This document shows positions 1 to 7,557 of a stretch of 64,000 nucleotides of DNA, one piece after another (position 1 is the stretch's first letter; each line of letters begins with the position of its first letter). The notes beneath the pieces were generated by a model. It was not told the DNA's origin. It ran no database searches and saw nothing but the letters and a program-made list of their open reading frames with translations. The DNA is taken from contig NC_014315.1 of assembly GCF_000143085.1 (NCBI RefSeq), positions 1,425,001-1,489,000 of the forward strand, read 5' to 3'. Source of the DNA: Nitrosococcus watsonii C-113 (GTDB lineage Bacteria > Pseudomonadota > Gammaproteobacteria > Nitrosococcales > Nitrosococcaceae). A program made the translations under genes and the position numbers.

Positions 1-1
1 T

Positions 2-184
2 TTGCCCAAGGTCTTGCAAACGGGCAGGGACTTGCCCGAAAAACCTTGCTCATTTTGCAATCGGTGCCTTCTCAATGCGCCCGCCAATCCCCTAGGTTGT
101 TACGATGTGCGCCGCTATGACAACCATCATGACGCCATGATTGAGGAGGTCATGACTGTTTATGATCCGCCTCCTTTTCATTAG
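2..184 (+). CDS. NADH:flavin oxidoreductase (Old Yellow Enzyme family), C-terminal end, 5' truncated
   Basis: Only the last ~60 residues are in the window; the frame is open at the left edge, so the TTG at position 2 is not the true start. A cysteine cluster CSFCNRC is followed by NPLGCYD and an acidic stretch with MIEEVM. I recall this as the C-terminal tail of a subgroup of NADH:flavin oxidoreductases of the OYE family, which reduce activated C=C bonds with FMN. It is followed 42 bp later by a small membrane peptide and then by cytochromes, a lipoxygenase and a patatin on the same strand, so it may be the first visible gene of that operon. The identification rests on a short tail and needs the upstream sequence. 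Confidence 0.55.
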   Translation: MPKVLQTGRDLPEKPCSFCNRCLLNAPANPLGCYDVRRYDNHHDAMIEEVMTVYDPPPFH

Positions 185-418: not shown

Positions 419-1939
419 ATGGCCACGCAGCAGAAGCAATCAGTGAATAAGGCAAAAAATCCTAGAAATCCACGGCGTATGTTTAGCCTCTTGATAATCG
501 GTATTGTGGTTGTCGCTGCTGGTTATCTTATTGCCCGTTTTGTTCCTGAAAGGCCAGTGGACTATGAGGCTATCGAAGATCATTTCAAATACGGCTCCAT
601 TGGCAGCGAGCCTGTCAATGGATTGCCTTATTGGATTTGGAAAGTGCTTCCAGAGATGTTTCCCGAGAAGCTCCCTGGCAAGGGCGGGTATGCTTCCTTC
701 GGATTCATTTACGAACAAGGGCGGGATTTGCCTATTGGTGTGTCGCAACGCCGGGTGACAGGTATTGAGCGCGTGTGGTTAAACTGCGCGGTTTGTCATA
801 CGAGCACCTTGCGGGAAACGAAAGGCGCTGAGCCCCAGGTTATTCTGGGGATGCCCGCCAATGACTTTAGACTGTATTTATTCATCCAATTCTTAAGAGA
901 AGTTGCGTTGGATAATCGTCTTACTTCGGAAAATGTCATGGCGAAGATTGAGGAAATGGGTGGTAATCTCGATCCCATCGAGAAAGTGGCCTATCGCTAT
1001 TTCGTTGTGGATCGAGTGCGCGCCGCGCTCTTCGAATTGCGCCAGCAGCTCAACTTTCTTGATCGCCAGCATCCCTGGGGTCCTGGCCGGGTGGATACTT
1101 TTAACCCCTATAAAGCCATTCAGTTTAATTTTCCCATGGATACATTACCCGCCGAGGAGTTAATCGGTCCAGCCGATTATCCTTCCATTTGGGATCAGCG
1201 GCCACGGGAAGGAATGTACCTCCACTGGGACGGCAATAACCCCTCCGTTCAGGAACGCAATAAGAGCGCCGCTTTGGGAGCGGGGGTGACGCCAGTCACC
1301 ATCGATCTGGAGCGGATTGGGCGTATTGAAGACTGGCTGTGGGATTTTAAACCCCTGGCTTATCCGAAGGAAATTACCTCGGCGAAAGCGGCGGAAGGCA
1401 AACAACTCTATGGGCAGTATTGCGCCCAATGCCATGGCATGCAGGAAGGGGATCAGTACCTATTTGATACCGGGCGGTTTTCGCGGTTGGGAAAGGTAGA
1501 ACCTATCACCGCTATTGGCACCGATCCGGGTCGGCTCAACTCCTATACCGAGCTATTATCCGTTAATCAAAATACCCTTTATGTGGGTTATCCCTGGCGT
1601 TTTAAACATTTTCGCAAAACCCATGGCTACGCCAACATGCCCCTGGATGGTCTTTGGCTGCGGGCGCCCTATTTGCATAACGGCTCGGTGCCGACGCTGC
1701 GGGATCTGCTGGAGCCGGCGGAGAACCGGCCAAAGGTATTCTATCGGGGTTATAACGTCTATGACTGGGAGAAGGTAGGCTTCATCTCGGATGTTGCCGA
1801 AGAAGATGGTCATGAATTTTTTAAATTCGATACCCAGGTAAGGGGGAATTCCAATGCCGGCCATGAAGGCGAGGCTTATGGCACCTCTCTGAGCGGAGCG
1901 CAAAAGGATGCGATGGTTGAGTATATGAAGACTTTTTAG
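419..1939 (+). CDS. Membrane-anchored diheme cytochrome c (CCP/MauG/RoxA-like)
   Basis: A 506-aa protein with a basic N-terminus and one membrane helix at about residues 21-40, so the body lies in the periplasm. Two haem c sites are visible: CAVCH (C123-H127) and CAQCH (C335-H339). The segment LWLRAPYLHNGSVPTL (about 412-427) is the signature stretch of diheme peroxidase/MauG relatives, where bacterial CCPs have APYMHDGS. The long insert between haems and the early PYWIWKVLPEMFP block fit the RoxA-like branch (haem-dependent lipid or rubber oxygenases) better than classical ~330-aa CCP. It is paralogous to the protein at 2408-3859. Being cotranscribed with a lipoxygenase makes lipid hydroperoxides or peroxidised lipids a plausible substrate, but this is not shown by sequence. 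Confidence 0.85.
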   Translation: MATQQKQSVNKAKNPRNPRRMFSLLIIGIVVVAAGYLIARFVPERPVDYEAIEDHFKYGSIGSEPVNGLPYWIWKVLPEMFPEKLPGKGGYASFGFIYEQGRDLPIGVSQRRVTGIERVWLNCAVCHTSTLRETKGAEPQVILGMPANDFRLYLFIQFLREVALDNRLTSENVMAKIEEMGGNLDPIEKVAYRYFVVDRVRAALFELRQQLNFLDRQHPWGPGRVDTFNPYKAIQFNFPMDTLPAEELIGPADYPSIWDQRPREGMYLHWDGNNPSVQERNKSAALGAGVTPVTIDLERIGRIEDWLWDFKPLAYPKEITSAKAAEGKQLYGQYCAQCHGMQEGDQYLFDTGRFSRLGKVEPITAIGTDPGRLNSYTELLSVNQNTLYVGYPWRFKHFRKTHGYANMPLDGLWLRAPYLHNGSVPTLRDLLEPAENRPKVFYRGYNVYDWEKVGFISDVAEEDGHEFFKFDTQVRGNSNAGHEGEAYGTSLSGAQKDAMVEYMKTF

Positions 1940-1976: not shown

Positions 1977-2393
1977 ATGAGTCGTTATGGGATTTGGCAC
2001 GGCCGGGTGGTATGGTTTGGAATTATCCTGAATATGTTTTTTGTGTTTCCCTTGGTGCTGGCGCCAGGATGGTTATTAGGGTTGCTTAATATTCCGCTGG
2101 ATCAACTTATTTGGGCGCGGGCCTCGGGAATGTTGCTTTTTATCATCAGTGTTTTTTATATACCCGCCACCTGGGATCTGAAACGCTACCGGGCGTCGGC
2201 CTGGTTTTCCATTTTCCCCTCCCGGACTTTTGGAGCCACTTTCTTTACGGTCGCGGTGTTTGTGTTTGGCTATCCCGTGGGTTTTCTCTCCATTGCCATT
2301 GTGGATGGCTTTATTGGAATCACAACATTTATTTTACTGTTGTTGGTGACCCTTGAAGAGAAAAGAAGGGGTACGCCAGTAACATTAAAATAG
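1977..2393 (+). CDS. Four-helix integral membrane protein of unknown function
   Basis: A 138-aa, strongly hydrophobic protein with about four membrane helices and a short charged C-terminal tail (LEEKRRG). The ATG at 1977 follows an AAGGA ribosome site. I do not recognise the family; the general look resembles small DoxX-type quinone-interacting membrane proteins, but no diagnostic motif is visible. It sits between the two diheme cytochrome genes, 37 bp after the first and 14 bp before the second. A role as membrane electron-transfer partner or anchor for the cytochromes is a reasonable guess only. Confidence 0.7.
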   Translation: MSRYGIWHGRVVWFGIILNMFFVFPLVLAPGWLLGLLNIPLDQLIWARASGMLLFIISVFYIPATWDLKRYRASAWFSIFPSRTFGATFFTVAVFVFGYPVGFLSIAIVDGFIGITTFILLLLVTLEEKRRGTPVTLK

Positions 2394-2407: not shown

Positions 2408-3859
2408 ATGCACTCAAAAACAGTTCGTTGGATGGTGGTGCTGCTGGCATTAGTCCTGGTGATGGGGGCCGTTGGTTGGTACAAACTTCTTCGTGAAGTG
2501 GAGCAAACCTCGCTGAAAGAGGCTTCGGCGGCGGAATGGTTTAAATACGGTTCCATTGGCAGCGAGGAGGAACAGGGCGTTCCCTATTGGATCTGGCGGG
2601 TTTTGCCTAAAATGTTTCCTGAGTATTTGCCAGGCCCTGGTGGTTATGCTGCCCTTGGTGTTCCCTGGGAACAGGGCCAGGAATTGCCGGTAGGATTTTC
2701 TAAAAAAACTATTGGTTTTCCCCGCGTTGCTTTTAACTGTGCCTTCTGCCATTCGGCTAGATACCGGCTCAAGGAAGATGAGCCGCCCACTATTATGGTG
2801 CCTGGGCCGGGGAATACCGTCAGGCCCCAAGACTATGCCCGCTTTCTTGCGGCAGCGGCGAATGATGCCCGCTTCAATTCCGACGATATTCTGGAACAGA
2901 TCAGTTTGATCTACGAATTGCCGTGGCTGGATAGGCAGCTCTATCGTTACTTAATTATTCCCATGACTAAAAAAGCATTGATCCAATATGGGCAAACATT
3001 TGCCTGGGCCCAGGAAAAGCCTCCTTGGGGGACCGGGCGCATCGATCCTTTTAACCCCATTAAGTTTGGAATCCTGCAAATGGGGATCGATACCACGATT
3101 GGCAATGCGGACATGATGCCTCTATGGAACCTGAAGGTCCGCGAAGGAGATGCCCTCCATTGGGATGGATTGAATACTGATCTGCATGAGGTGGTGATCA
3201 GTTCCGCCATTGGCGATGGCATGACGTATAAGGCCATTGCCCATGACAGCTTGGATCGTATCGAGGCCTGGTTACAAGAAGTGCCGCCGCCGGCTTCGCC
3301 TTTTGATGCTCGCAAGGGAGCTGATTCTCCTTATTTTTTGGATAAGCAGCTAGCCGCGAAAGGTAAAACAATTTATGAAAAAAATTGTGCCGAATGTCAT
3401 GCCCCTGAAGGCAAGCGTCATCGGACAGTAATTCCGGTTGAAGAAGTGGGTACTGACCGTCACCGGGTGGATATGTGGACGGCTGAAGCGGCTAAGCGCT
3501 ACAACGCCTATCAGGAAGATTACGATTGGGGCATGCGCCACTTTAGGGATGTGGACGGCTATGTGGCGGTACCCCACGATGGCTTATGGTTGCGGGGCCC
3601 CTATCTTCACAACGGCTCTGTGCCTACCCTGCGGGATATGCTCAGAAAACCGGAAGACCGGCCCCAGGTTTTTTATCGGGGTTACGATCTTTTCGATCCC
3701 ATCAATGTGGGTTTTGTGTCCCAGGGAGAAGAAGCCGAGCGTATTGGTTTTCGCTATGACACGGGGGTCCCTGGCAATAGCAATCAAGGACATTTGTTTG
3801 GTACGGATCTTCCGCAAGATCGAAAAGAAGCGTTACTTGAATACTTAAAAACGCTTTGA
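2408..3859 (+). CDS. Second membrane-anchored diheme cytochrome c (CCP/MauG/RoxA-like)
   Basis: A 483-aa paralogue of the 419-1939 product. It has an N-terminal membrane helix (about residues 8-24) and haem c sites CAFCH (C111-H115) and CAECH (C327-H331). The conserved blocks FKYGSIGSE, PYWIWRVLPKMFP, GRIDPFNPIKF and GLWLRGPYLHNGSVPTLRDM are shared with its partner, while the region around the second haem is shorter. The start at 2408 follows AGGAGGGTTAGAGCTC. The gene ends 13 bp before the lipoxygenase. Two divergent paralogues side by side suggest different roles, for example one oxidising or rearranging the lipid peroxide and one passing electrons. Which residues ligate the distal side of each haem cannot be settled by eye. 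Confidence 0.85.
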   Translation: MHSKTVRWMVVLLALVLVMGAVGWYKLLREVEQTSLKEASAAEWFKYGSIGSEEEQGVPYWIWRVLPKMFPEYLPGPGGYAALGVPWEQGQELPVGFSKKTIGFPRVAFNCAFCHSARYRLKEDEPPTIMVPGPGNTVRPQDYARFLAAAANDARFNSDDILEQISLIYELPWLDRQLYRYLIIPMTKKALIQYGQTFAWAQEKPPWGTGRIDPFNPIKFGILQMGIDTTIGNADMMPLWNLKVREGDALHWDGLNTDLHEVVISSAIGDGMTYKAIAHDSLDRIEAWLQEVPPPASPFDARKGADSPYFLDKQLAAKGKTIYEKNCAECHAPEGKRHRTVIPVEEVGTDRHRVDMWTAEAAKRYNAYQEDYDWGMRHFRDVDGYVAVPHDGLWLRGPYLHNGSVPTLRDMLRKPEDRPQVFYRGYDLFDPINVGFVSQGEEAERIGFRYDTGVPGNSNQGHLFGTDLPQDRKEALLEYLKTL

Positions 3860-3872
3860 TAAGGAGGGCACC

Positions 3873-5492
3873 ATGAATACCTCGCTACCGCAAAATGATT
3901 CCGATCCCCAGGGCCGAAAGGATCGGCTTGAAAGACGGCGAGCGCTGTATGTATTTAATTACGATTATGTGCCGCCCATACCGATGATTGATAAGGTCCC
4001 TCATGAAGAGTATTTCAGTCCAAAATACACTGCAGAACGTTTGGCGTCCATGGCGAAGCTAGCGCCTAATATGCTTGCCGCTAAAACCAAGCGGCTCTTC
4101 GACCCGCTTGATGAACTGAATGAATATGATGAGATGTTCATCTTCCTGGACAAACCGGGTATTGTCCGCGGCTATCGAACAGATGAATCCTTTGGGGAAC
4201 AACGCCTATCCGGCGTTAATCCCATGTCAATACGCCGCCTTGATAAACTCCCCGAAGACTTTCCGATCATGGATGAGTATCTGGAACAAAGTTTGGGTTC
4301 TCCACATACTCTCGCGCAGGCACTCCAAGAAGGACGGCTTTATTTTCTGGAGTTCCCTCAATTGGCTCATGTGAAAGAAGGCGGACTTTACCGGGGACGG
4401 AAAAAATACCTGCCCAAGCCCCGGGCTTTATTTTGCTGGGACGGGAATCATTTGCAGCCGGTGGCCATCCAAATTAGCGGACAACCAGGGGGGCGGCTCT
4501 TTATTCCCCGGGATTCTGATTTAGATTGGTTTGTAGCCAAGTTGTGCGTCCAGATTGCCGATGCCAATCATCAGGAACTTGGCACCCACTTTGCCCGTAC
4601 TCATGTGGTGATGGCGCCTTTTGCCGTGGTGACCCACCGTCAATTGGCGGAAAATCATCCTCTGCATATTCTGTTGCGGCCTCATTTCCGGTTCATGCTC
4701 TACGACAATGATTTGGGGCGTACCCGATTTATCCAGCCAGATGGTCCGGTGGAGCACATGATGGCGGGCACTCTAGAAGAGTCCATTGGGATTTCCGCTG
4801 CCTTTTATAAGGAATGGCGGCTAGATGAAGCCGCCTTTCCCATTGAAATTGCCCGCCGCAAGATGGATGACCCGGAGGTATTGCCCCATTATCCCTTCCG
4901 GGACGATGGGATGCTGCTATGGGACGGTATTCAGAAATTTGTGAAGGAATACTTGGCCCTTTATTATCAAAGTCCTGAAGATTTGGTCCAGGACCAGGAA
5001 CTGCGGAACTGGGCTAGGGAGCTTACCGCCAATGACGGGGGCCGGGTAGCGGGTATGCCGGGGCGTATTGAAACCGTCGATCAGCTTACCAGCATCCTTA
5101 GCACGGTCATTTATACTTGTGCACCCTTGCACTCGGCACTGAATTTTGCCCAGTACGAGTATATCGGCTATGTCCCGAATATGCCCTATGCGGCCTATCA
5201 CCCCATTCCCGAAGAGGGAGGCGTGGATATGGAAACGCTGATGAAAATTCTGCCTCCCTACGAGCAGGCTGCGCTGCAGCTGAAATGGACCGAGATCCTC
5301 ACTTCCTACCATTATGATCGCTTGGGACATTATGATGAAAAATTCGAAGATCCCCAGGCGCAAGCCGTAGTGGAACAATTCCAACAGGAGCTAGCGGCAG
5401 TAGAACAGGAGATTGATCAGCGTAACCAAGACCGTCCGCTAGCCTACACGTATCTGAAGCCTTCGGAAATTATCAATAGCATTAATACCTGA
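3873..5492 (+). CDS. Lipoxygenase
   Basis: A 539-aa protein with the lipoxygenase catalytic core and no signal peptide. The helix carrying two iron histidines reads HFARTH (H239, H244), followed by the family block HPLHILLRPHFRF. The later iron-ligand helix reads LHSALNFAQY (H420, N424). The C-terminus ends NSINT, so the terminal carboxylate ligand would come from Thr539 and not the usual Ile. At the Coffa position (one residue before R283 in DLGR) there is Gly282, which in characterised enzymes favours R-stereochemistry. These enzymes add O2 to polyunsaturated fatty acids to make hydroperoxides. It is rare in bacteria. The start follows AAGGAGG, and it sits between a diheme cytochrome and a patatin lipase. 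Confidence 0.93.
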   Translation: MNTSLPQNDSDPQGRKDRLERRRALYVFNYDYVPPIPMIDKVPHEEYFSPKYTAERLASMAKLAPNMLAAKTKRLFDPLDELNEYDEMFIFLDKPGIVRGYRTDESFGEQRLSGVNPMSIRRLDKLPEDFPIMDEYLEQSLGSPHTLAQALQEGRLYFLEFPQLAHVKEGGLYRGRKKYLPKPRALFCWDGNHLQPVAIQISGQPGGRLFIPRDSDLDWFVAKLCVQIADANHQELGTHFARTHVVMAPFAVVTHRQLAENHPLHILLRPHFRFMLYDNDLGRTRFIQPDGPVEHMMAGTLEESIGISAAFYKEWRLDEAAFPIEIARRKMDDPEVLPHYPFRDDGMLLWDGIQKFVKEYLALYYQSPEDLVQDQELRNWARELTANDGGRVAGMPGRIETVDQLTSILSTVIYTCAPLHSALNFAQYEYIGYVPNMPYAAYHPIPEEGGVDMETLMKILPPYEQAALQLKWTEILTSYHYDRLGHYDEKFEDPQAQAVVEQFQQELAAVEQEIDQRNQDRPLAYTYLKPSEIINSINT

Positions 5493-5505: not shown

Positions 5506-7557
5506 ATGAGCCGCGTAGCAGAAAGCCAAGATTTGGAAGGAAGCTCAAAAAGTAGACCCGCGGTTCCGATGGAGCAAAAAATGTTAGAGATGTTCCGTCA
5601 GGAACAGGAACGCCTCCGGGACAGACGCCGCCAGGCGGGGCTTGCTCCAGGCCGGCCAGAAAAAGATGCGGTAGGGCTGGCTTTTTCGGGCGGCGGGATT
5701 CGCTCCGCTACCTTTAACCTGGGGTTATTGCAGGCAATGAATCGCTACGGCTTTCTCAAGCATGTGGATTATCTTTCCACTGTCTCGGGCGGAGGCTATA
5801 TTGGCAGTTCCCTGACCTGGTTTATGTCTTGCCTTAAGCAGGACTTTCCTTTTGGGACTTCCCGTCGCGACAATACTGAAACGCCGGGCGCTATCGTAAG
5901 CTGGCTCCGTCAGCATGCTTCCTATCTCACGCCGGGTGAGGGGGTGGATCTTTGGGCCTTGGCTGCAGCAGTGATACGAGGCACTTTGGTGAATTTGTTG
6001 GTAATTATCCCGATTTTTTTTACCGTAACCGTGCTTCTGGTTTGGTTACCTGGTCCAGTGGTTATTCCAGCTTATCCTCAGAATGGATTTACCGTATTGC
6101 TAGGCGTGGGCCTTGCCTTTCTCGCTCTGCTTGGCATCACGTCCATTTTCTATGCTCTATTTTCTAATATTAAAAGCTTACAGCGATTTCGTGTACGAAG
6201 CCGGAGCAACTTTTGGATGGGGCGGATGCTGTTTTTTGGGATAGGATTTGCAGTGCTTGGTACGATTCCTCTCTTGCATGGTTATCTAGAGATTCATTTT
6301 AAGGACTTGATTGAAGAATTTTATGCCTCTTTTTCCCTGGCTGGGGCGCTATCTCTCATGGGCGGCTGGATTGGCCGGGATTCGGAAAACGAGACTCAGG
6401 GTTACCGCAAAATCTTGTTAAATGTGGGACTGGCTTTGGTAATTTATGGTCTTTTGCTATGGATGTACCATGATGCTGATGCTGTTGTAAATAAGGGTGA
6501 TGTATTGAGGAAAGGGTTATTATGGGCGGGAGTAGCCTCGGCGCTTTTTATTGGTATGCTAGCCAATATTAACTATGTCTCTATCCACCGTTATTACCGG
6601 GATCGGTTGATGCAAGCATTTATGCCACCGGTGGATTTTACTGATTTTAGCGAACCTAATAAATGTTTATTAAAAAACATTCTTCAAACCAAGGCTCCCT
6701 ATCATATTATTAATACCATGATGATGACCTGGAATTCTTCCACTCCCACATTGCGGATCAGAGGCGGGGATAATTTTATTTTGACTCCTTTATTTTGTGG
6801 CGCCCCGTCCACCGGCTATGTTTCGAGTGCCCAATATTTGGGTGGCACGATGGATCTGAGCACTGCTTTTAGTATTTCGGGAGCCGCCATCGATCCCAAT
6901 ACGGGCGTGACCCGATCCCGGCCCTTATCCTTTATGATGACCTTGTTGAACGTGCGGATAGGTTATTGGGTTCGTAATCCAAAGCGGCCCGCCAATAGGA
7001 TAAAGGGATGGTCGCGTCCTTATTGGTTCATCTACTCTCTACGGGAAATGTTGGGTCTTAAAATGGCTGAAAATCAGATGCATGTTTATCTGACCGACGG
7101 AGGTCATTTTGAGAACCTGGGTCTTTATGAGCTGATAAGACGCCGATGCCGTTATATTGTGCTGTCCGATGCGGCTGAAGATCGAGCCTGGAAGTTTGAT
7201 GATTTAGGGAATGCCTTGGAAAAAATCCGAGTGGATTTTGGCGCGGCTATTGATATGGATACCCAAATGTTGCAACCTCAGGGGCCTAATCAATTTTCTC
7301 CTCAGCCGGGAGTGCTGGGAAATATTTGCTACGCTGATGGGAGTCGAGGTACTTTGCTCTATATTAAGGCTTCCGTTTTTTCCGGGCTTCCAGAGGATGT
7401 TTACGCCTACCGGCGGGCTAATCCCAAGTTCCCCAATCAAAGTACCGTGGATCAGTTTTTCGATGAGCCCCAATTTGAGGCTTACCGGGAACTGGGTTTT
7501 CAAACAGGCAAGCGAATATTTGAGGATAAAAAGCTCCATAAAGTTTTTGCGCCTTAA
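5506..7557 (+). CDS. Patatin-like phospholipase with internal membrane domain
   Basis: A 683-aa protein whose patatin domain is split by membrane helices. The oxyanion motif SGGGIRSATFN is at about residues 61-71, the nucleophile elbow STVSGGG places Ser94 as catalytic serine (the usual GxSxG has Thr instead of the first Gly), and the partner aspartate is in LTDGGHFENLG (Asp531). Between about residues 150 and 360 there are five or six hydrophobic helices. The coiled N-terminus is rich in Glu and Arg. Patatin hydrolases release fatty acids from membrane lipids. It lies 14 bp after the lipoxygenase stop, behind a strong GAGGGGGG ribosome site, so the lipase likely supplies the lipoxygenase substrate. 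Confidence 0.88.
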   Translation: MSRVAESQDLEGSSKSRPAVPMEQKMLEMFRQEQERLRDRRRQAGLAPGRPEKDAVGLAFSGGGIRSATFNLGLLQAMNRYGFLKHVDYLSTVSGGGYIGSSLTWFMSCLKQDFPFGTSRRDNTETPGAIVSWLRQHASYLTPGEGVDLWALAAAVIRGTLVNLLVIIPIFFTVTVLLVWLPGPVVIPAYPQNGFTVLLGVGLAFLALLGITSIFYALFSNIKSLQRFRVRSRSNFWMGRMLFFGIGFAVLGTIPLLHGYLEIHFKDLIEEFYASFSLAGALSLMGGWIGRDSENETQGYRKILLNVGLALVIYGLLLWMYHDADAVVNKGDVLRKGLLWAGVASALFIGMLANINYVSIHRYYRDRLMQAFMPPVDFTDFSEPNKCLLKNILQTKAPYHIINTMMMTWNSSTPTLRIRGGDNFILTPLFCGAPSTGYVSSAQYLGGTMDLSTAFSISGAAIDPNTGVTRSRPLSFMMTLLNVRIGYWVRNPKRPANRIKGWSRPYWFIYSLREMLGLKMAENQMHVYLTDGGHFENLGLYELIRRRCRYIVLSDAAEDRAWKFDDLGNALEKIRVDFGAAIDMDTQMLQPQGPNQFSPQPGVLGNICYADGSRGTLLYIKASVFSGLPEDVYAYRRANPKFPNQSTVDQFFDEPQFEAYRELGFQTGKRIFEDKKLHKVFAP

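Follow-up and report, generated by a model that had tools for sequence, protein, structure and literature searches.

The closest characterised relative of the lipoxygenase (LOX) described here is CspLOX2, the linoleate 11R-lipoxygenase of Cyanothece PCC 8801 (PDB 5MED), whose iron ligand set includes Ile569, a residue that binds iron via its carboxylate (Newie et al., 2017; PMC5437038). A 2026 review states that the LOX chain ends at the metal, its carboxylate being a ligand, and that the last residue is in most cases Ile and in rare ones Val (PMC13059375). In CspLOX2 the Coffa-Brash determinant is Ala300, and the same study reports that A300G raises the 9R product, that Leu304 is highly conserved and that L304F did not raise the share of the 11-product (Newie et al., 2017; PMC5437038). 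Three LOXs of bony fish have Gly at the Coffa site and form more 12S than 8R product (PMC10531496).

Three further systems bear on the neighbouring genes. The PA2077-PA2078 operon of Pseudomonas aeruginosa encodes an oleate 10S-DOX and a 7,10-diol synthase, both RoxA-like di-haem proteins (FadCcp), and as described it holds the two di-haem genes only, with no LOX, Old Yellow Enzyme (OYE), small membrane protein or patatin (PMC4496055). RoxA itself is a rubber oxygenase (PDB 4b2n), and the plant fatty acid alpha-dioxygenases (4KVJ, 4HHR) belong to PF03098, a protein family different from the LOX family, PF00305. In open-licence PubMed Central text we found no paper on a Nitrosococcus lipoxygenase, and among the matches listed no title or abstract opening named a cluster of the kind set out below. 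None of the four kinds of protein, LOX, RoxA-like, OYE and patatin, is new in itself; the novelty appears to lie in how stably they occur together and in the swapping of the LOX.

The window is the whole 64,000-nucleotide stretch that was analysed, positions 1,425,001 to 1,489,000 of Nitrosococcus watsonii C-113 (GCF_000143085.1, contig NC_014315.1), and its genome is that of an ammonia oxidiser by an AMO match (1.5e-125). On balance, we believe that its LOX gene encodes a complete iron lipoxygenase without a C2 domain, belonging to a distinct clade that we call Thr-LOX, and that Thr-LOX is the dioxygenase step of an oxylipin-type cluster common to Nitrosococcus and several cyanobacteria. The features of the locus are as follows.

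1..184, + strand: 3' end of the OYE gene (441 aa; start 1142 bases before the window, L093 16859-18184; PF00724 1.3e-63)
419..1939, + strand: CYT1, RoxA-like di-haem c-type cytochrome with an N-terminal hydrophobic helix, 506 aa (PF21419 1.5e-16; NF040606 198.3 bits)
1977..2393, + strand: MEM, 138 aa, four hydrophobic stretches by hydropathy, no Pfam family, kept in cyanobacterial loci
2408..3859, + strand: CYT2, second RoxA-like di-haem cytochrome, 483 aa (PF21419 9.8e-14; NF040606 165.6 bits)
3861..3867, + strand: AAGGAGG, ribosome-binding-like site of the LOX gene, 5 bases before its ATG
3873..5492, + strand: LOX gene, 539 aa (PF00305 3.1e-73; model pLDDT 93.3; Z 50.1 to 5MED)
4587..4604, + strand: iron ligands His239 and His244 with clamp residue Phe240 (codon 4590-4592), aligned to CspLOX2 His257, His262 and Leu258, respectively
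4704..4706, + strand: Asp278, replacing clamp Ile296 of CspLOX2
4716..4718, + strand: Gly282, Coffa position by alignment, equivalent to CspLOX2 Ala300
4728..4730, + strand: Phe286, replacing the highly conserved clamp Leu304 in the alignment
5130..5144, + strand: iron ligands His420 and Asn424, aligned to CspLOX2 His449 and Asn453
5286..5288, + strand: Trp472, replacing clamp Leu502 in the alignment
5487..5489, + strand: Thr539, C-terminal residue, its carboxylate an expected iron ligand by sequence, alignment and structural match
5506..7557, + strand: PAT, patatin-like phospholipase, 683 aa (PF01734 5.3e-7), with five hydrophobic stretches and the motifs GGGIR, VSGGGY and DGG

The LOX reading frame runs from an ATG to a C-terminal NSINT followed by TGA, and lipoxygenase is the one Pfam family matched in the protein, at 247.8 bits against a curated cut-off of 23.6; it is also the sole PF00305 match in its genome. 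The AlphaFold2 model, built on 46 aligned sequences, has a high mean pLDDT (93.3), and its best solved match is CspLOX2 over 534 residues (rmsd 1.6 A, 41% identity), in an alignment that reaches model residue 539 and chain residue 569. The two proteins share the fold, the absence of a C2 domain and, by alignment, an iron site of three His and one Asn, with the chain end as the expected further ligand, whereas they are only 38-41% identical and end in Ile569 and Thr539, respectively. All four side-chain ligands are present, and the LOX chain encoded in the window ends at the aligned position of Ile569, but with Thr. By this correspondence Thr539 would bind iron by its carboxylate, and since the expected ligand is a main-chain group, the Thr side chain may matter little. 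A sequencing slip or private mutation was ruled out as the origin of the Thr, which is fixed across the group of relatives described below with three different stop codons behind it.

A preliminary description of this DNA had called the reading frame a lipoxygenase and its last residue Thr539, and the family match, the CspLOX2 fold, the translation and the same Thr in relatives bear out both points. Its statement that family members end in Ile oversimplifies, since 36 of the 78 rows of our tree end in Ile, 21 in Thr, 11 in Val, 6 in Met and 4 in Ala. Where it spoke of a slightly altered iron site, the altered C-terminus is real; the word slightly understates the case, as four other positions of the oxygen-steering clamp have changed and the alignment points clearly to a remodelled pocket at the iron. 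Neither these four clamp residues nor the gene cluster described below figured in that description. The clamp as defined on CspLOX2 consists of Leu258, Ile296, Ala300, Leu304, Leu502 and Leu506, against which the window LOX has Phe, Asp, Gly, Phe, Trp and Leu. The alignment places Gly282 on Ala300, so this residue does occupy the Coffa position as previously proposed, and the Gly expected of an R-lipoxygenase is there. The further step from that Gly to an R-lipoxygenase is less secure, given the exceptions among the fish enzymes, the remodelled clamp around Gly282 and a Coffa residue that has switched at least 8 times over the 78 tree rows. If CspLOX2 A300G is a guide, Gly282 taken by itself would point to 9R-type attack; we did not accept it as proof that the products are R, since enzymes with Gly may form mainly S products and the residue is so changeable.

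To place the protein, 84,980 species genomes were scanned for LOX genes, and the best 80 of 211 confirmed loci were kept; the survey finds sequences holding one of two short motifs and possibly left out the window genome (G000) itself. Twenty of these 80 loci group with the Nitrosococcus LOX, all of them cyanobacterial (Nostoc and other Nostocales, Fortiea, Aliterella) and 56-61% identical to the window protein. Phe240, Asp278, Gly282 and Phe286 are present in all 20 and the set in none of the other 60 of the best 80, and the NSINT end together with Trp472 is found in 19 of 19 members with an intact end, L068 breaking off earlier. Thr is likewise the last residue of a later-found sequence (L121) and of a truncated copy in a same-genus genome (G003), which also ends NSINT. 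In a quick tree, with SH-aLRT values but no bootstrap and with a long-branch warning, the window protein, the G003 copy and 19 cyanobacterial LOXs form one clade of 21 rows (SH-aLRT 100); L068, L086, L031, L053, L081, L001 and L004-L012 were not included. The two Nitrosococcus rows adjoin cyanobacterial members and the clade lies within the cyanobacterial LOX radiation. Because of this nesting, transfer from cyanobacteria to Nitrosococcus would be the simpler history, with a root placed by a single long outgroup branch.

Of 538 aligned positions, 16 are diagnostic, that is, fixed (at least 95%) in the group and absent from 63 other rows, which derive from 60 loci because three genes are split. 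They include four of the six CspLOX2-defined clamp positions as well as the C-terminus, and 15 of the 16 diagnostic residues are also found in the window protein, position 89 being the one that differs. The comparison was made without L001 (the window itself) and L003-L012, and counts at clamp columns refer to the 60 rows reaching them. Hypergeometric values for the presence of clamp positions and the C-terminus among the diagnostic sites (7.6e-6 and 4.9e-6) are descriptive only, since the changes lie on one branch. At the individual columns, Asp278 is found in 22 of 22 group rows and is absent from the 60 other rows that reach this column, and the Coffa residue of the 60 other rows is Ala in 42 and Gly in 18. 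Cyanobacterial LOXs ending NSIS(I/V/M) (L031-L067 except L059) are 44-52% identical to the window protein and like it in length class and ligands, but lack the Thr end, Asp278, Phe286 and Trp472, and the cluster genes are absent from the flanks examined. There is also a distant LOX-like group from other Gammaproteobacteria (L004-L006, L008-L010), in which HALEATG is aligned at His420-SALN-F-Q and the chain ends SPWN; the iron site of this group looks different, or else is misaligned. Since pocket residues and chain end are fixed together in one clade, Thr-LOX offers a natural test of the roles of the C-terminal residue and the oxygen-steering clamp.

These comparisons bear on the simplest alternative, that the protein is an ordinary R-lipoxygenase acting on linoleate-like fatty acids, in which the change of the last residue is harmless. 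The intact iron ligands, the Gly at the Coffa site and the 9R product gained by CspLOX2 A300G (PMC5437038) all agree with it. However, Phe240, Asp278, Phe286 and Trp472, which make up four of the five clamp positions besides Coffa, are missing from all 60 other loci in the comparison, an enzyme with Gly can be mainly S-specific (PMC10531496), the Coffa residue is as changeable on the tree as noted above, and the tie to a conserved gene cluster would be left unexplained. For these reasons we regard an ordinary R-lipoxygenase as unlikely, and return to Thr-LOX as part of a cluster.

In the window locus, as in the clusters of the group, the gene order is CYT0-OYE-CYT1-MEM-CYT2-LOX, where CYT0 is a third di-haem protein encoded beside OYE and before the window. 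CYT1, MEM, CYT2, LOX and PAT lie on the same strand with gaps of 13-37 bases; as OYE and CYT1 are 234 bases apart, a single operon for the whole cluster is not shown. Promoter-like sites are no more frequent than in shuffled sequence (9 against 9.6), and terminator-like sites number 20 against 10.5 in shuffles (sd 3.5), those on the + strand lying within genes except for one at 183-196, behind OYE. The window OYE is 64% identical to the Nostoc cluster OYE. CYT1 and CYT2 score above the 150-bit cut-off of NF040606, the NCBIfam model for di-haem cytochrome c peroxidases, and each carries two CxxCH motifs and the MauG motif PYxHNGSVP (as PYLHNGSVP). CYT0 has two CxxCH motifs without NGSVP and reaches 47.3 bits with the same model, under its cut-off, and against the curated cut-offs for RoxA, RoxB and RoxC (900-1000 bits) CYT1 and CYT2 reach at most 68 bits. 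The CYT2 model is of moderate quality (pLDDT 75.6), and its only structural match under E 0.001, low-similarity matches ranked below it not being counted, is RoxA 4b2n (E 4.6e-7, 16% identity structurally), which is also its best sequence match. With PA2077-PA2078 the two cytochromes share, in a likeness drawn from description only, the tandem arrangement of RoxA-like di-haem genes, two CxxCH and PYxHNGSVP, but they are shorter, at 506 and 483 aa against 634 and 624 aa (PMC4496055). Upstream of the cluster, at L093 6758-10924, lie a type I restriction enzyme R-subunit gene and a RhuM/Fic-like gene.

The same neighbours accompany the LOX in cyanobacteria. CYT2 is found in all 20 cyanobacterial Thr-LOX loci and CYT0, OYE, MEM and CYT1 in 19 of 20 each; MEM is missing only from a locus cut by its contig end, and the CYT1 count reflects L021, whose contig starts inside CYT2 and where an apparent CYT1 match is the CYT2 gene. 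In the 60 other LOX loci, 24 of which span less than 15 kb, a tblastn search with the proteins of Nostoc or the window (E 1e-8, 60 bits) found no CYT0, OYE, CYT1, MEM or CYT2. In the cyanobacterial clusters that we laid out, CYT0 is divergently transcribed. Genes for an ABM protein and a saccharopine-dehydrogenase-like protein are present in 17 of the 20 loci, behind LOX where laid out, and an extra hydrolase-like gene in 8 of the 20. We considered and rejected patatin as a part common to all clusters: among the loci compared, the window's type of PAT is confined to Nitrosococcus, and in Aliterella a different patatin follows LOX. This Aliterella patatin (L030 11658-12758) resembles the CBASS cGAMP-activated phospholipases at 163.7 bits, under the cut-off of 200.

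So as not to select for LOX, we also searched with OYE as the query. At 1e-100 it matched in 4 of 386 cyanobacterial genomes, one of them the search centre (G753, Aliterella) already known via its LOX. Among the resulting clusters LOX is intact in G753 and G880, and in G1107 only 61 C-terminal residues of it are left. In the fourth genome, G835, OYE is accompanied by an animal-haem-peroxidase gene and a class 3 lipase, with neither CYT1 nor CYT2 within 12.5 kb of OYE. In Pseudomonadota the threshold was 1e-60: among 369 class-level genomes OYE matched in two, the window's own and G346, where the contig breaks off within CYT2, and among 398 phylum-level genomes in three, the window's own, G445 and G683. 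G445 has OYE, CYT1, CYT2 and a weak MEM match, G683 has OYE and CYT1, and no LOX was found in the 20 kb of either locus. A haem-peroxidase gene lies about 0.9 kb from OYE in G445 and G683, and in G835 one 137-aa ORF separates the two genes. All three haem-peroxidase proteins (L118, L119 and L122) match PF03098 and carry an EF..VYRMH motif, the Tyr of which is presumably the catalytic Tyr of alpha-dioxygenase. For G683 and G835 the nearest solved proteins are the plant alpha-dioxygenases 4KVJ and 4HHR (E 2.2e-108 and 1.7e-114 to 4KVJ), and the G445 gene is assigned to the family by PF03098 and the motif.

Within Nitrosococcus, CYT0, OYE, CYT1 and CYT2 are kept in all four genomes, and LOX is complete only in that of the window. 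The G003 copy (L094 11450-12523) has a clean in-frame loss of residues 5-186 and keeps its start, the AAGGAG upstream and all iron ligands, and the adjoining patatin has an in-frame stop. In G002 (L112 5904-8490) a GMC oxidoreductase gene lies between 5' and 3' LOX scars, the 5' scar having been judged by eye, an apparent replacement of LOX by the GMC gene; the N-terminus of this oxidoreductase is twin-arginine-like, and no MEM match was found at the locus. In G001 no LOX was found, and PAT has a cholesterol-oxidase-like GMC gene on its downstream side; at L111 11429-14706 of the same genome, a 567-aa protein with two MEM-like stretches is followed by the cholesterol-oxidase-like GMC oxidoreductase. 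As LOX is absent or broken in three of four Nitrosococcus genomes and a remnant in one of three OYE-found cyanobacterial clusters, it is dispensable, and given these repeated losses we rejected the idea that it is an obligatory part of the cluster.

Given the conserved cluster and its alpha-dioxygenase and GMC neighbours, the most probable role of the LOX is to deliver an oxidised lipid into a pathway of the oxylipin type, in which fatty acid dioxygenation by the LOX, its substrate and its product are deduced from gene content. PAT would free an acyl chain for the LOX, which would abstract a bis-allylic hydrogen and add O2, with the carboxylate of Thr539 holding the iron; the clamp, aromatic and with its Asp, would favour a substrate or position out of the ordinary. 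The RoxA-like di-haem enzymes, exported and anchored in the membrane, could then rearrange or cleave the hydroperoxide, and OYE could reduce the resulting enone or dienone. The genome has two PF00487 desaturases, both of DesA type and almost identical to each other (L123 1006-2175 and L124 1474-2643), and a polyunsaturated substrate inside Nitrosococcus is therefore not obvious; such chains may come from outside, or the substrate of the LOX may not be classical. The C-terminal domain of one scanned DesA-type desaturase also matches an ISL3 transposase tail domain. Gene order here binds a LOX clade to particular partner enzymes, so that the pathway can be tested and its product searched for.

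The compartments involved are a problem for this pathway. Proteins of the c-type di-haem kind mature outside the cytoplasm, and by hydropathy each of the cytochromes has one N-terminal hydrophobic helix, whereas LOX and OYE have no such stretch and no export signal. The same facts weigh on a second alternative, in which the rebuilt pocket disfavours oxygenation and the LOX acts on hydroperoxides from the di-haem cytochromes, isomerising them or converting them in some other way, a role modelled on that of epidermal LOX3-like enzymes. The bulky aromatic clamp could restrict O2 and Asp278 puts a polar group at the reaction site, and the adjoining RoxA-like enzymes resemble the group of PA2077, a fatty-acid dioxygenase (PMC4496055). 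Against it, Gly282 should leave oxygen access open, and a LOX without an export signal would be parted from membrane-anchored di-haem proteins; we consider a hydroperoxide-transforming LOX improbable. That the Nitrosococcus LOX is a decaying passenger, acquired with the cluster and without present function, fits the single full-length gene among four genomes, the loss of residues 5-186 in G003, the scars in G002 and the failure to find it in G001, but is more doubtful still, as the window protein keeps all ligands and group-specific residues and the dN/dS of LOX over the 357 codons shared by window and G003 (0.077) is close to those of CYT1 (0.070) and CYT2 (0.066), within a neighbour range of 0.040-0.100, which indicates past purifying selection.

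The oxylipin-type cluster with Thr-LOX as its dioxygenase step may also be read more broadly, and more tentatively, as a modular pathway. Its core would be the RoxA-like di-haem enzymes, OYE and the membrane protein, fed by whichever enzyme occupies the slot, Thr-LOX, alpha-dioxygenase or GMC oxidoreductase. The logic would be jasmonate- or prostaglandin-like (hydroperoxide, haem rearrangement, enone reduction) and common to ammonia oxidisers and Nostoc, with the LOX rebuilt for a dedicated substrate. The same slot does not mean the same chemistry, since alpha-dioxygenase and LOX yield different hydroperoxides and a GMC oxidoreductase is no dioxygenase. If true, the exchange of LOX and alpha-dioxygenase near the same type of OYE would be a case of unrelated bacterial dioxygenases substituting for each other.

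A divergent LOX (L003/L095) was seen outside the clade, at L095 7965-11551 (G287, contig 6). It is 31% identical to the window protein, ends NTVMV and has His at the Asn424 column and Phe at the Coffa column. Its gene shares 10 bases with an upstream gene for a full-length di-haem cytochrome that belongs to the NF040606 family (483 bits), an arrangement that hints at a wider link between LOX and di-haem proteins.
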